IMG/VR virus record: IMGVR_UViG_3300028394_000162
Coordinates: 1 to 38,315 of that record
Source of the DNA: a virus
Direction: 5' to 3' (one strand)
DNA: 38,315 bases
The notes under the pieces are model-generated. The model searched no databases and had not been told where the DNA came from. It saw only the letters and a list, made by a program, of their open reading frames with translations. This document shows, piece after piece, positions 15,009 to 17,681 of this stretch (the stretch's first letter is position 1; each line of letters opens with the position of its first letter). Made by a program: the position numbers and the translations under genes.

Positions 15009-15653
15009 ATGCAATTGACTACTTTTTCTTCGGCAAATCTGCCAGCGGTTTCTTCTTTGTCTACCTCCCTGCGCGCGCTTGAAAAAGACGTTGGCCCAGC
15101 CGGTACTGTCATCCTTAAAATGGACAAGACAGGCCACTGGGTCTTTGGTGCAGACCAGACAGAAGCCGAGCCTGACTCTCTTTGGGCTATCAATCCTTTC
15201 TCGTTCATCCACGGCTTTATCGCTTGGGGTGATGGTGAAGTGTTGGGCGAGAAGATGGTTGGCGTATCTGAGCCACTGCCTGAACTGGAAAGCGCTCACA
15301 AGGACGCCAAGCGCGGCTGGGAGACTCAGATCGGTATGTCGCTCAAGTGCACCACTGGCGAGGACAAGGACATGGAAGCACGCTTCACAACCACTTCGGT
15401 GGGCGGCAAGCGCGCGGTCCAGACCCTTGGTGTCGCCATTGCGACGCAAGTTGAGAAAGACCAATCTAAGCCTGTGCCTGTCGTGCGTCTGAAGAAGGAT
15501 CACTACCAGCACAAGTCTTACGGCAAAATCTACACGCCAGTGTTTGAGATTGTCGAGTGGGTTGGCCTTGACGGCGCTGCTGAAGAAGCCGCACCCGCTG
15601 CTGAGGCAGAGCCAGAAGCACCTGCTGCTGGCCGTCGCCGCCGTAGCGTCTAA
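15009..15653 (+). CDS. SSB-like / recombination-associated phage protein, 214 aa
   Basis: ATG 15009 lies 9 bases after the nuclease stop. The protein has a compact beta-rich N-terminal body with the conserved segments LWAINPFSFIHGFIAWGDGEVLGE and a C-terminal low-complexity Ala/Glu linker ending in RRRRSV. I recognise similar proteins next to Cas4-like nucleases in other proteobacterial phages, usually unnamed. A single-strand DNA-binding or annealing role is inferred from position. Unlike classical SSB its tail is basic, not acidic. Confidence 0.6.
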   Translation: MQLTTFSSANLPAVSSLSTSLRALEKDVGPAGTVILKMDKTGHWVFGADQTEAEPDSLWAINPFSFIHGFIAWGDGEVLGEKMVGVSEPLPELESAHKDAKRGWETQIGMSLKCTTGEDKDMEARFTTTSVGGKRAVQTLGVAIATQVEKDQSKPVPVVRLKKDHYQHKSYGKIYTPVFEIVEWVGLDGAAEEAAPAAEAEPEAPAAGRRRRSV

Positions 15654-15660
15654 GTAAATC

Positions 15661-15748
15661 GGGGGCTGTTAAGCCAGCGTTCGAGGATGTTTCTGTAGGG
15701 ATTTTCTGGCTTTCTTCCCTACCTTGACGAGACCAAATCGAAGCCCCC
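15661..15748 (+). ncRNA. Candidate structured RNA (pseudoknot) in the DNA polymerase 5' leader
   Basis: The 111-bp gap between two genes contains nested and interleaved complements. P1: GGGGGCT (15661-15667) with AGCCCCC (15742-15748). P2: CGTTcGAGG (15678-15686) with CCTTGACG (15722-15729), one bulge and two wobbles. P3: GTAGGGA (15695-15701) with TCCCTAC (15716-15722). The P3 loop holds CTGGCTT (15706-15712), complementary to AAGCCAG (15671-15677) in the P1-P2 junction, so the loop can fold back as a pseudoknot. No T-run follows, so it is not a plain terminator. The polymerase start 17 bases later has only a weak ribosome site, suggesting control of translation. I do not match it to a known riboswitch or ribozyme. 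Confidence 0.6.
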
Positions 15749-15764
15749 ACCTATAAAGTACAGT

Positions 15765-17681
15765 ATGGTTTATATCGATTTCGAGACCCGTAGCCGGTGC
15801 GATCTGAAGGCCAAAGGCGTTTACAACTACGCTCAGGACGCCAGCACCGACGTGCTGTGTATGTCCTACGCCTTTGATGACGGCGAAGTGCAGACGTGGA
15901 CGTCAGGCCCGTTGCCTGACTTCACAGGGCACATGATCTACGCCCACAACGCCGCCTTCGAGCGGTTAATTTTTTGGTATGTGCTGCAACAGAATTACCC
16001 GCTTGAGTCGTTCTACTGCACCGCAGCACAAGCCCGGTCCAACTGCGCGCCTGGTAGCCTTGAGGACGTCGGCCGCTTTGCTGGCGCAGACATGAAGAAG
16101 GACCACCGGGGCGCTCAACTAATACGTTTACTTAGCATCCCTAAGGCCGATGGTACGTTCAACAACGACCCGACCTTGATGGCCGAGATGATTGCGTACT
16201 GCGAACAAGACGTGCGGGCCATGCGTGCCGTCAGCAAGGCCATGCGGCCGCTGTCTGACGATGAGTTGGCCGACTACCACGCCAACGAGCGCATTAACGA
16301 TCGGGGCGTCTTGGTGGACGTGCCGTTGTGCGAGGCCGCCGTGCGTTACGCTGGCGCTGAAATGGACGAGATACAGAAGATCGTCGCCGAGGTGACAGAG
16401 GGCGTGATCACCAGCGTGCGCTCACCTAAGATGCGCGAGTGGGTGCTGGAGCGTGTCGGGCCAGAGGCCAAAAAGCTGATGTGGACCGGCGAAAAATATT
16501 CTATTGACAAGACCGTGCGGGCTAACTTGCTTGCGATGGAGAACCATGATGAAGTCCCAGCCGATGTGGCCGAAGTTATACAGTGCGCCGATGACCTTTG
16601 GGCGTCGTCGGTTGCGAAGTTCAGCCGCCTTAAAAGTTTGGCAGACGAGGAAGACGGCCGAGTTAGAGGTGCCTTTGTTTTTGCTGGAGGCAGTGCAACA
16701 GGGCGCGCTTCGTCGTACGGCGCTCAAGTCCATAATTTCCCGCGTAAAAGCGCTCAAGACCCCGAAACCGTCCGCACAGCAATGGTTCGAGGCCATGAAA
16801 TCGTGCCACGATTCGAAAAACGCATTACAGACGTTCTAAAGAAGATGCTGCGCCCGGCTATTGTGGCCAAGCCTGGGCACGTCCTGATCGCTTACGATTG
16901 GTCGGCCATCGAAGGGCGCGTGCATCCGTGGCTGTCCAACTGCCCGGCGGGTGAAGCCAAGCTAAACGTGTTCCGGTCAGGCCTTGACCCGTACAAAGTT
17001 AACGCTACTGCGACCTTTCGCGTGGCTTACGATGACGTGACGGGCGATCAACGCCAAGTGGGTAAGGTGCAAGAATTGGCGCTGGGTTTTCTTGGTGGTG
17101 CTGGCGCGTTTGAAGTGTTCGGCCGCGCCTACGGCATCCACTTGTCAGCCGCTGAGGTTGCCCGCGCTGTTGAGGGCTGGCGTAGGGCAAACCCTTGGGC
17201 GCAAGACCACGGCCGACGTTTAGAAGATGCGTACCTGCGCGCCATGAGAAACAAAGGGCATGAATTTGCTGCGGGTCGTGTTGTGTACTTGTTTGATGGC
17301 CAGACCCTCTGGTACAGTCTGCCTTCCGGCCGGGTGCTTTGCTACCCAAACGCCAAGTTTGACGAAGAAGGCAACGTGACGTACACCAAAGCAGCTTGGA
17401 AGCCAGCAGCCGATGCGACCGAGTGGCCGCGCGCCCGTTTGTGGCGTGGTCTGGCTTGCGAGAACGTCACTCAAGCGGCTGCGCACGATGTGCTGCGCCA
17501 TTCACTGCGCCAGCTTGATGACATCGTGCTACACGTCCATGATGAGATTGTCGTCGAGTGCCCTGAGTCAACCGCCGAGGCTACGGCCGCCCACATTCAC
17601 AAGATCATGTGTACACCGCCTGCGTGGGCTGAGGGTTTACCCTTGGCCGCTGAGGGCGTGACAACAAAGCGGTATAGCTAA
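15765..17681 (+). CDS. Family A DNA polymerase with 3'-5' exonuclease, 638 aa
   Basis: Exonuclease motifs are YIDFET (Asp5, Glu7), AHNAAFE (60-66) and YCEQD (145-149). The polymerase domain shows TGRASSYGAQVHNFPR (312-327), motif A DWSAIEGR (379-386 region), a motif-B helix around Arg430/Lys434 with ELALGFLGG, and motif C HVHDE (590-594). These are the full set expected for an active replicative phage polymerase. The second exonuclease motif has Glu where Asp is usual after HNxxF. It sits between the structured RNA candidate and a GC hairpin, then the primase-helicase. Confidence 0.94.
   Translation: MVYIDFETRSRCDLKAKGVYNYAQDASTDVLCMSYAFDDGEVQTWTSGPLPDFTGHMIYAHNAAFERLIFWYVLQQNYPLESFYCTAAQARSNCAPGSLEDVGRFAGADMKKDHRGAQLIRLLSIPKADGTFNNDPTLMAEMIAYCEQDVRAMRAVSKAMRPLSDDELADYHANERINDRGVLVDVPLCEAAVRYAGAEMDEIQKIVAEVTEGVITSVRSPKMREWVLERVGPEAKKLMWTGEKYSIDKTVRANLLAMENHDEVPADVAEVIQCADDLWASSVAKFSRLKSLADEEDGRVRGAFVFAGGSATGRASSYGAQVHNFPRKSAQDPETVRTAMVRGHEIVPRFEKRITDVLKKMLRPAIVAKPGHVLIAYDWSAIEGRVHPWLSNCPAGEAKLNVFRSGLDPYKVNATATFRVAYDDVTGDQRQVGKVQELALGFLGGAGAFEVFGRAYGIHLSAAEVARAVEGWRRANPWAQDHGRRLEDAYLRAMRNKGHEFAAGRVVYLFDGQTLWYSLPSGRVLCYPNAKFDEEGNVTYTKAAWKPAADATEWPRARLWRGLACENVTQAAAHDVLRHSLRQLDDIVLHVHDEIVVECPESTAEATAAHIHKIMCTPPAWAEGLPLAAEGVTTKRYS

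Follow-up and report, generated by a model that had tools for sequence, protein, structure and literature searches.

We have analyzed a window of 38,315 nucleotides, that is, the whole stretch from position 1 to 38,315 of the virus record IMGVR_UViG_3300028394_000162 (IMG/VR). Between an open reading frame that ends at 15653 and the ATG of a family A DNA polymerase gene at 15765 there is an interval that is non-coding, as an earlier reading made from the sequence only (the sequence-only reading from here on) had stated. The interval holds a predicted pseudoknotted RNA of about 88 nt, with the helices P1, P2, P2b and P3 and a 7-bp pseudoknot that joins the loop of P3 to J1/2 (Table 1). The protein encoded upstream carries the PHROG label of nucleotidyltransferase, a name also used in the annotation of Caulobacter phages. 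The label is probably wrong, since the structure predicted for the protein looks like that of OB-fold ssDNA-binding proteins. Specifically, the AlphaFold model (pLDDT 75.7) gave weak PDB matches, mostly to SSB OB folds, and with the core of RB69 gp32 the values were Z 5.5, 130 aligned and rmsd 4.3. The model is suggestive of an OB-fold ssDNA-binding protein.

Table 1. Coordinates in the window of the pseudoknotted RNA, its parts and the two flanking genes.
Feature	Position	Strand	Evidence
Upstream gene, probable OB-fold ssDNA-binding protein	15009..15653	+	AlphaFold model; stop codon 7 nt before P1
Whole pseudoknotted RNA	15661..15748	+	Model R1, 93.8 bits at 15660-15750; alignment A1; weak full-length Atu_At1 match
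P1, 5' strand GGGGGCT	15661..15667	+	Double-sided changes in 7/7 pairs, 98.3% paired
Pseudoknot, 5' strand AAGCCAG, in J1/2	15671..15677	+	Almost invariant in A1; covaries in phage variants (110/112) and rhizobial copies
P2, 5' strand TCGA	15681..15684	+	Double-sided changes in 3/4 pairs
Conserved internal loop GGAU	15685..15688	+	Invariant A1 columns (part fixed by the search pattern); also kept in the rhizobial alignment
P2b, 5' strand	15689..15691	+	Double-sided changes in 2/3 pairs, 100% paired
P3, 5' strand GTAGGGA	15695..15701	+	Double-sided changes in 7/7 pairs
Pseudoknot, 3' strand CTGGCTT, in P3 loop, flanked by UUUU and UC	15706..15712	+	A1; phage and rhizobial covariation
P3, 3' strand TCCCTAC	15716..15722	+	As P3 5' strand
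P2b, 3' strand	15731..15733	+	As P2b 5' strand
Conserved internal loop CAAA	15734..15737	+	Nearly invariant in A1
P2, 3' strand TCGA	15738..15741	+	As P2 5' strand
P1, 3' strand AGCCCCC	15742..15748	+	As P1 5' strand
Downstream gene, family A DNA polymerase	15765..17681	+	phrog_17, E 1.3e-93; ATG 16 nt after P1

The folding energy of the element is unremarkable (z -1.07, with 35 of 200 shuffles as good) and so uninformative; the fold cannot be proven from a single sequence and the proof is covariation. A search pattern, GGATG...TTTTCTGGCTTTC, was derived from the sequence of the window and those of its closest relatives and run on the IMG/VR contigs. It matched at least 120 of them, nearly all with the same folded RNA, and altogether the contigs of uncultured phages that carry the pseudoknotted RNA number well over 200. 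Patterns and models retrieve sequences that resemble their seeds, so that all copy counts given here are lower bounds, and the phage contigs are redundant. Among the INPHARED phages, blastn with two different queries gave no copy of the RNA. In an alignment of 58 diverse phage homologues (A1), 95.4% of the pair cells were standard pairs, against 30–51% when the structure was slid. Changes on both sides affected 20 of the 31 pairs, amounting to 332 such cells versus 87 expected from shuffles. P1, P2, P2b and P3 were each supported; support was weaker for a short helix, P2c (33-35 with 75-77). P1, P3 and the pseudoknot had been proposed in the sequence-only reading, and all three are present within 15661-15748 and confirmed by the covariation. 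The P2 of that reading, a bulged helix of 8 bp, exists as a helix but is better described as 4 bp followed by the GGAU/CAAA internal loop and P2b; lengthening P2 by the bulged GG/CC would be in competition with P2b, and P2b covaries. Compensatory changes, the absence of which at the pairings had been named beforehand as grounds for dropping the candidate, were found, and the candidate stands.

In A1 the pseudoknot hardly varies, which is due to the search pattern, as this had fixed one of the two strands. In phages, we used a relaxed pattern in which one position of the 5' strand must be anything but A and four positions of the 3' strand are unconstrained. This gave 112 distinct copies, 110 of them fully complementary (G-U allowed), with 15 strand combinations overall. 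For the related RNAs of Rhizobiales described below, we used the genome-wide matches of a covariance model (R2) built without the pseudoknot. These matches carry at least 10 covarying variants, nearly all complementary (AACCGGA/TCCGGTT, AACGGGA/TCCCGTT, AAACGAA/TTCGTTT, AATCGGG/CCCGATT, AACCAGA/TCTGGTT, AGCCGGA/TCCGGCT and others), and the weakest one, L492, showed no recognisable pseudoknot. Covariation in two tests that do not presuppose the pairing indicates that the pseudoknot is real.

At the pair positions G-U was much more frequent than A-C (112:21 and 97:12), indicating that the functional product is the RNA of the sense (+) strand. A structure at the DNA level or an antisense RNA was rejected on the same grounds, and also because the orientation follows the genes. 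Taken together, the substitution patterns show the window element to be a self-contained pseudoknotted RNA domain of the sense strand. Other candidates were discarded as well. The element lacks a terminator T-run, as noticed earlier, and T-runs of 4 or more are found in only 37 of 114 phage copies, which speaks against a transcription terminator. A pseudoknot for readthrough or frameshifting is unlikely, since the upstream frame reaches a further stop codon within the element and the spacing from stop codon to P1 varies in frame across copies. ARAGORN found no genes in the window, in agreement with the view that this is neither a tRNA nor a tmRNA.

The searched phage contigs usually have one copy, in sense orientation, mostly 4–8 nt past the upstream stop codon (114 copies of this RNA, designated type A, and 114 of a second one, type B, see below) and most often 7–30 nt before the next start codon. 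The neighbors, taken from simple ORF calls, are diverse. Downstream there are DNA polymerases A and B, terminases, exonuclease, methylase and others; upstream, unrelated SSB families (PF00436, Enc34/gp2.5, DUF669, PHROG SSBs, acidic-tip proteins). SSB-type clusters account for 67 of the 179 copies with a called upstream gene, counting the cluster of the window itself. In one contig (G739) the RNA follows the same upstream gene as in the window and precedes a different downstream gene. In two contigs whose polymerases are 90–91% identical (L006 and L012) the intergenic RNA is absent and the rest of the contig has no copy either, and 19 out of 23 related contigs are devoid of any copy. This distribution shows that the RNA is an accessory module, presumably of phage transcripts. 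Regulation specific to the polymerase, as the sequence-only reading had proposed, is not supported, given the homologues before so many other genes. Autoregulation by the polymerase was rejected on account of the varied contexts, the absence in L006 and L012 and the downstream swap in G739. In a second phage clade the RNA mostly follows an exonuclease gene at a distance of 40–140 nt, and the next ORF begins only well after it; some copies are behind a short type B-like RNA. In two phages a tRNA-Asn gene comes directly after the pseudoknotted RNA (L402, 3435-3510; L519, 5454-5529).

When the same two flanking genes were inspected in related phages, the slot between them contained type A (the RNA of the window), type B, other closed RNAs, plain hairpins or nothing. 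A slot at polB is also common to types A and B. An accessory RNA that is replaced by unrelated domains, or by nothing, makes control specific to the polymerase unlikely, and the comparison suggests that the need of the slot can be met by different closed folds. The type B RNA, GAAAGCGGATGCTG...GCAGCGAGTA with a hypervariable tip, is found on at least 120 contigs and has no match in Rfam. Its architecture is P1, GAAAGCGGAUGCUG, hypervariable tip, GCAGCGAGUA and P1 again (examples are L335-L453, L014, L017, L020, L024, L043 and L045, the L014 copy lying just before 5001). At least four further closed folds, apparently unrelated, are found just 5' of the polymerase in L022, L025, L034 and L077, all bracketed by a GGGG...CCCC stem. 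Besides, some closed slot RNAs have tRNA-like sequences nested in them. One is at 61-129 of L459, minus strand (in L043), with a sub-threshold tRNA match of 25 bits at a place where ARAGORN finds no gene; another is at about 2685-2830 of L004, where the domain that bears it stands in tandem before a type A RNA.

No Rfam family, riboswitches and ribozymes included, reached the gathering score over the whole window, which agrees with the earlier statement that no known RNA could be recognised. However, that statement has to be amended, as there is a distant relative, the orphan family Atu_At1 (RF02496), which together with a poor match to isrG was all that appeared when the 201-base neighborhood was searched up to E 10. 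Atu_At1 aligned with the window element over model positions 1-108 of 108 at 16.4 bits. The gathering threshold of the family is 60 bits, and the element is thus not placed as a formal member; nor does it come from a Rhizobiales cellular genome, the window being a virus record. A general pattern that allowed other pseudoknot sequences, run on GTDB genomes, gave mainly Rhizobiales matches. The alignment of 44 rhizobial copies (A2) has the same fold as the phage RNA plus an extra small hairpin, with 94.5% paired. Model R2, made of rhizobial copies only, recovered, in a search over 335 kb, 27 of the 30 phage loci, its matches lying precisely on the element, with E down to 1e-7 (these covariance models are home-made and their E-values rough), and scored 19.9 bits on the window element. 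The phage model R1 found in turn some rhizobial copies (25.2 bits, E 0.0012) and no match in 289 alphaproteobacterial genomes. Judged by sequence and predicted fold, the phage RNAs and the rhizobial Atu_At1 RNAs are distant homologues, and the window element is a new phage branch of the orphan family and not a formal Rfam member. A literature search by the name Atu_At1 found no paper; the phage RNA appears to be uncatalogued, and an earlier computational prediction of the motif is possible. In the structure line of RF02496 in Rfam, J1/2 forms a small hairpin of its own and the P3 loop has no partner; the pseudoknot that pairs the two, which covaries in rhizobial copies, could be added to it.

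Whole-genome searches identified clear rhizobial-type copies in 10 of 12 genomes, 1–4 in each and mostly 2–4, and there were matches in 17 of 150 genomes sampled across the Rhizobiales. The 289 genomes from across the Alphaproteobacteria gave one weak match beyond the reference genome, G188, outside the Rhizobiales and with its pseudoknot not recognised. In this sample, Alphaproteobacteria outside the Rhizobiales have essentially no copies. A promoter-like GGAAC-N18-TT was found in 51 of 72 rhizobial copies, with GGAAC about 46–55 nt before the pseudoknot strand. We take this to be the EcfG/general-stress promoter form of Alphaproteobacteria. The RpoE2 regulon of Sinorhizobium has been treated elsewhere (PMC3616915). 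The sense genes downstream include ligD, xth (exodeoxyribonuclease III), DUF763, GXWXG, pyridoxamine-oxidase-like, DUF892 and others, and in Agrobacterium fabrum C58 a copy on the At plasmid, at 55166-55267 of NC_003064.2, is directly 5' of ligD. Most copies have a sense start codon within about 100 nt downstream and few terminator-like sites in between, and several without a called long ORF are still near a start codon. Stress-type promoters, nearby sense starts and few terminators suggest that in Rhizobiales this RNA mainly constitutes the 5' end of stress-gene mRNAs.

The alternative that these are putative trans-acting small RNAs, processed from longer transcripts and binding a host factor, and that phages bring along a stress RNA of the host in a version of their own, we consider unlikely. 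Rfam does list Atu_At1 as a Rhizobiales sRNA, P1 closes the 5' and 3' ends, and the RNA is usually single in a searched phage contig, accessory and with varied neighbors. The copies followed directly by tRNA-Asn, those in tandem behind a type B-like RNA and a copy of Mesorhizobium terrae with no annotated sense gene downstream also fit. However, most rhizobial copies are close to the start codon of a sense gene and terminator-like sites between the two are few, which goes against it, and many sRNA calls in Agrobacterium have been argued, as a general claim, to be 5' UTRs (Lee et al., 2013; PMC3738593).

Two other readings are confronted with the same contexts. Sense orientation within operons and at the 5' ends of leaders would suit a putative element of the put/EAR kind, an antiterminator or pausing signal acting on the transcribing RNA polymerase; phage put RNAs are structured cis-acting antiterminators. 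This is improbable, as the slot also holds unrelated RNAs, hairpins or nothing and the rhizobial copies often have just one gene behind them, ligD or xth for instance. Compact nested helices, a pseudoknot from loop to junction and conserved loops are, on the other hand, reminiscent of the general layout of small ribozymes, for example twister. A putative new self-cleaving ribozyme that trims intergenic mRNA seems very improbable all the same: no Rfam ribozyme was found at gathering score or up to E 10, and the rhizobial domain begins close to where transcription is expected to start, a place at which a cut would take off next to nothing.

The explanation that we tentatively prefer, with less than even confidence, is that the RNA may be a closed cis domain that works as a nuclease barrier or insulator. 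It would act in cis on its own transcript, the compact domain closed by P1 blocking ribonucleases and insulating the flanking reading frames. In the window it would protect the mRNA of the upstream probable ssDNA-binding gene and separate it from that of the polymerase, and the rhizobial copies would protect stress mRNAs at their 5' end. We favor a barrier or insulator because such a role tolerates the swap for unrelated closed folds and fits both the site after the stop codon in phages and the 5'-end site in Rhizobiales. The recurrence of different closed folds and hairpins in the slot also fits the view that what is required there is closure of the RNA and not one particular ligand. Against it, the copies of the second phage clade are not immediate leaders, Atu_At1 is filed as an sRNA and the spacing from the stop codon could stem from genome compaction alone. 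In addition, the conserved unpaired loops (GGAU/CNAA, UUUU...UC, UUAAG) exceed what a barrier needs. Loops so strongly conserved suggest a specific partner, and for this reason the trans-acting RNA, and also control by a protein or ligand, are retained as alternatives. The latter, not very likely in our view, would be a riboswitch-like or protein-bound cis-regulator whose loops would make up a pocket that takes a small signal molecule or a protein of host or phage, with control of the neighbor genes as the outcome. It would agree with the unpaired conserved loops, with the close start codons and with the position as a 5' leader before functionally diverse rhizobial stress genes, as is the case for second-messenger riboswitches. 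Nevertheless, the copies show no common expression platform of the terminator or T-run kind, with T-runs in the minority of phage copies given above and few terminator-like sites in the rhizobial leaders, and an accessory RNA replaced in its slot by unrelated ones or by none speaks against such control.

The observation is larger than first noted: hundreds of uncultured phages carry the RNA, and rhizobial stress genes have a leader RNA that is related to it. Its only relative in Rfam, an orphan family of rhizobial sRNAs, has a high score threshold, and the link with Atu_At1 and the C58 copy directly upstream of ligD provide a testable handle on function in a laboratory strain. Since unrelated closed folds are exchanged at one place behind ssb-type genes, one may ask what phages use such RNA cassettes for. 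It is possible, if speculative, that a single pseudoknotted RNA module is common to phages and to the general stress response of Rhizobiales, and that it binds a specific factor or signal of the host or withstands the host's nucleases. Phages would then have adopted, or supplied, a stress-RNA device of the host, and together with type B, which is equally common and of unrelated structure, the module would represent an unrecognised class of interchangeable operon RNA cassettes.

Several known systems can be compared with this one. REP-type intercistronic stem-loops protect the upstream mRNA in bacterial operons, and they share with the window RNA the position directly past a stop codon within an operon, although the latter is far more elaborate, conserved and pseudoknotted. 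The exoribonuclease-resistant RNAs of flaviviruses (PMC7527734) are also compact and pseudoknotted, but their helix arrangement and organisms are different and they have no Rfam match here; the proposal of a similar function is by analogy only. The pseudoknot in the gene 32 mRNA of T4, which serves the autoregulation of an SSB (PMC535899), is likewise a pseudoknotted mRNA element tied to a phage gene for an ssDNA-binding protein. However, in T4 it is located 5' of the ssb gene that it regulates, whereas the window RNA lies 3' of an ssb-like gene, 7 nt past its stop codon and not in a 5' leader, and its phage homologues are often beside genes other than ssb. From Atu_At1 itself the phage branch differs in the absence of the rhizobial P4, in the sequences of the other helices and in its location in phage operons rather than behind stress promoters. 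Both have in common P1, P2, the GGAU loop, P2b, P3 and the position of the pseudoknot, and they are collinear over their full length.
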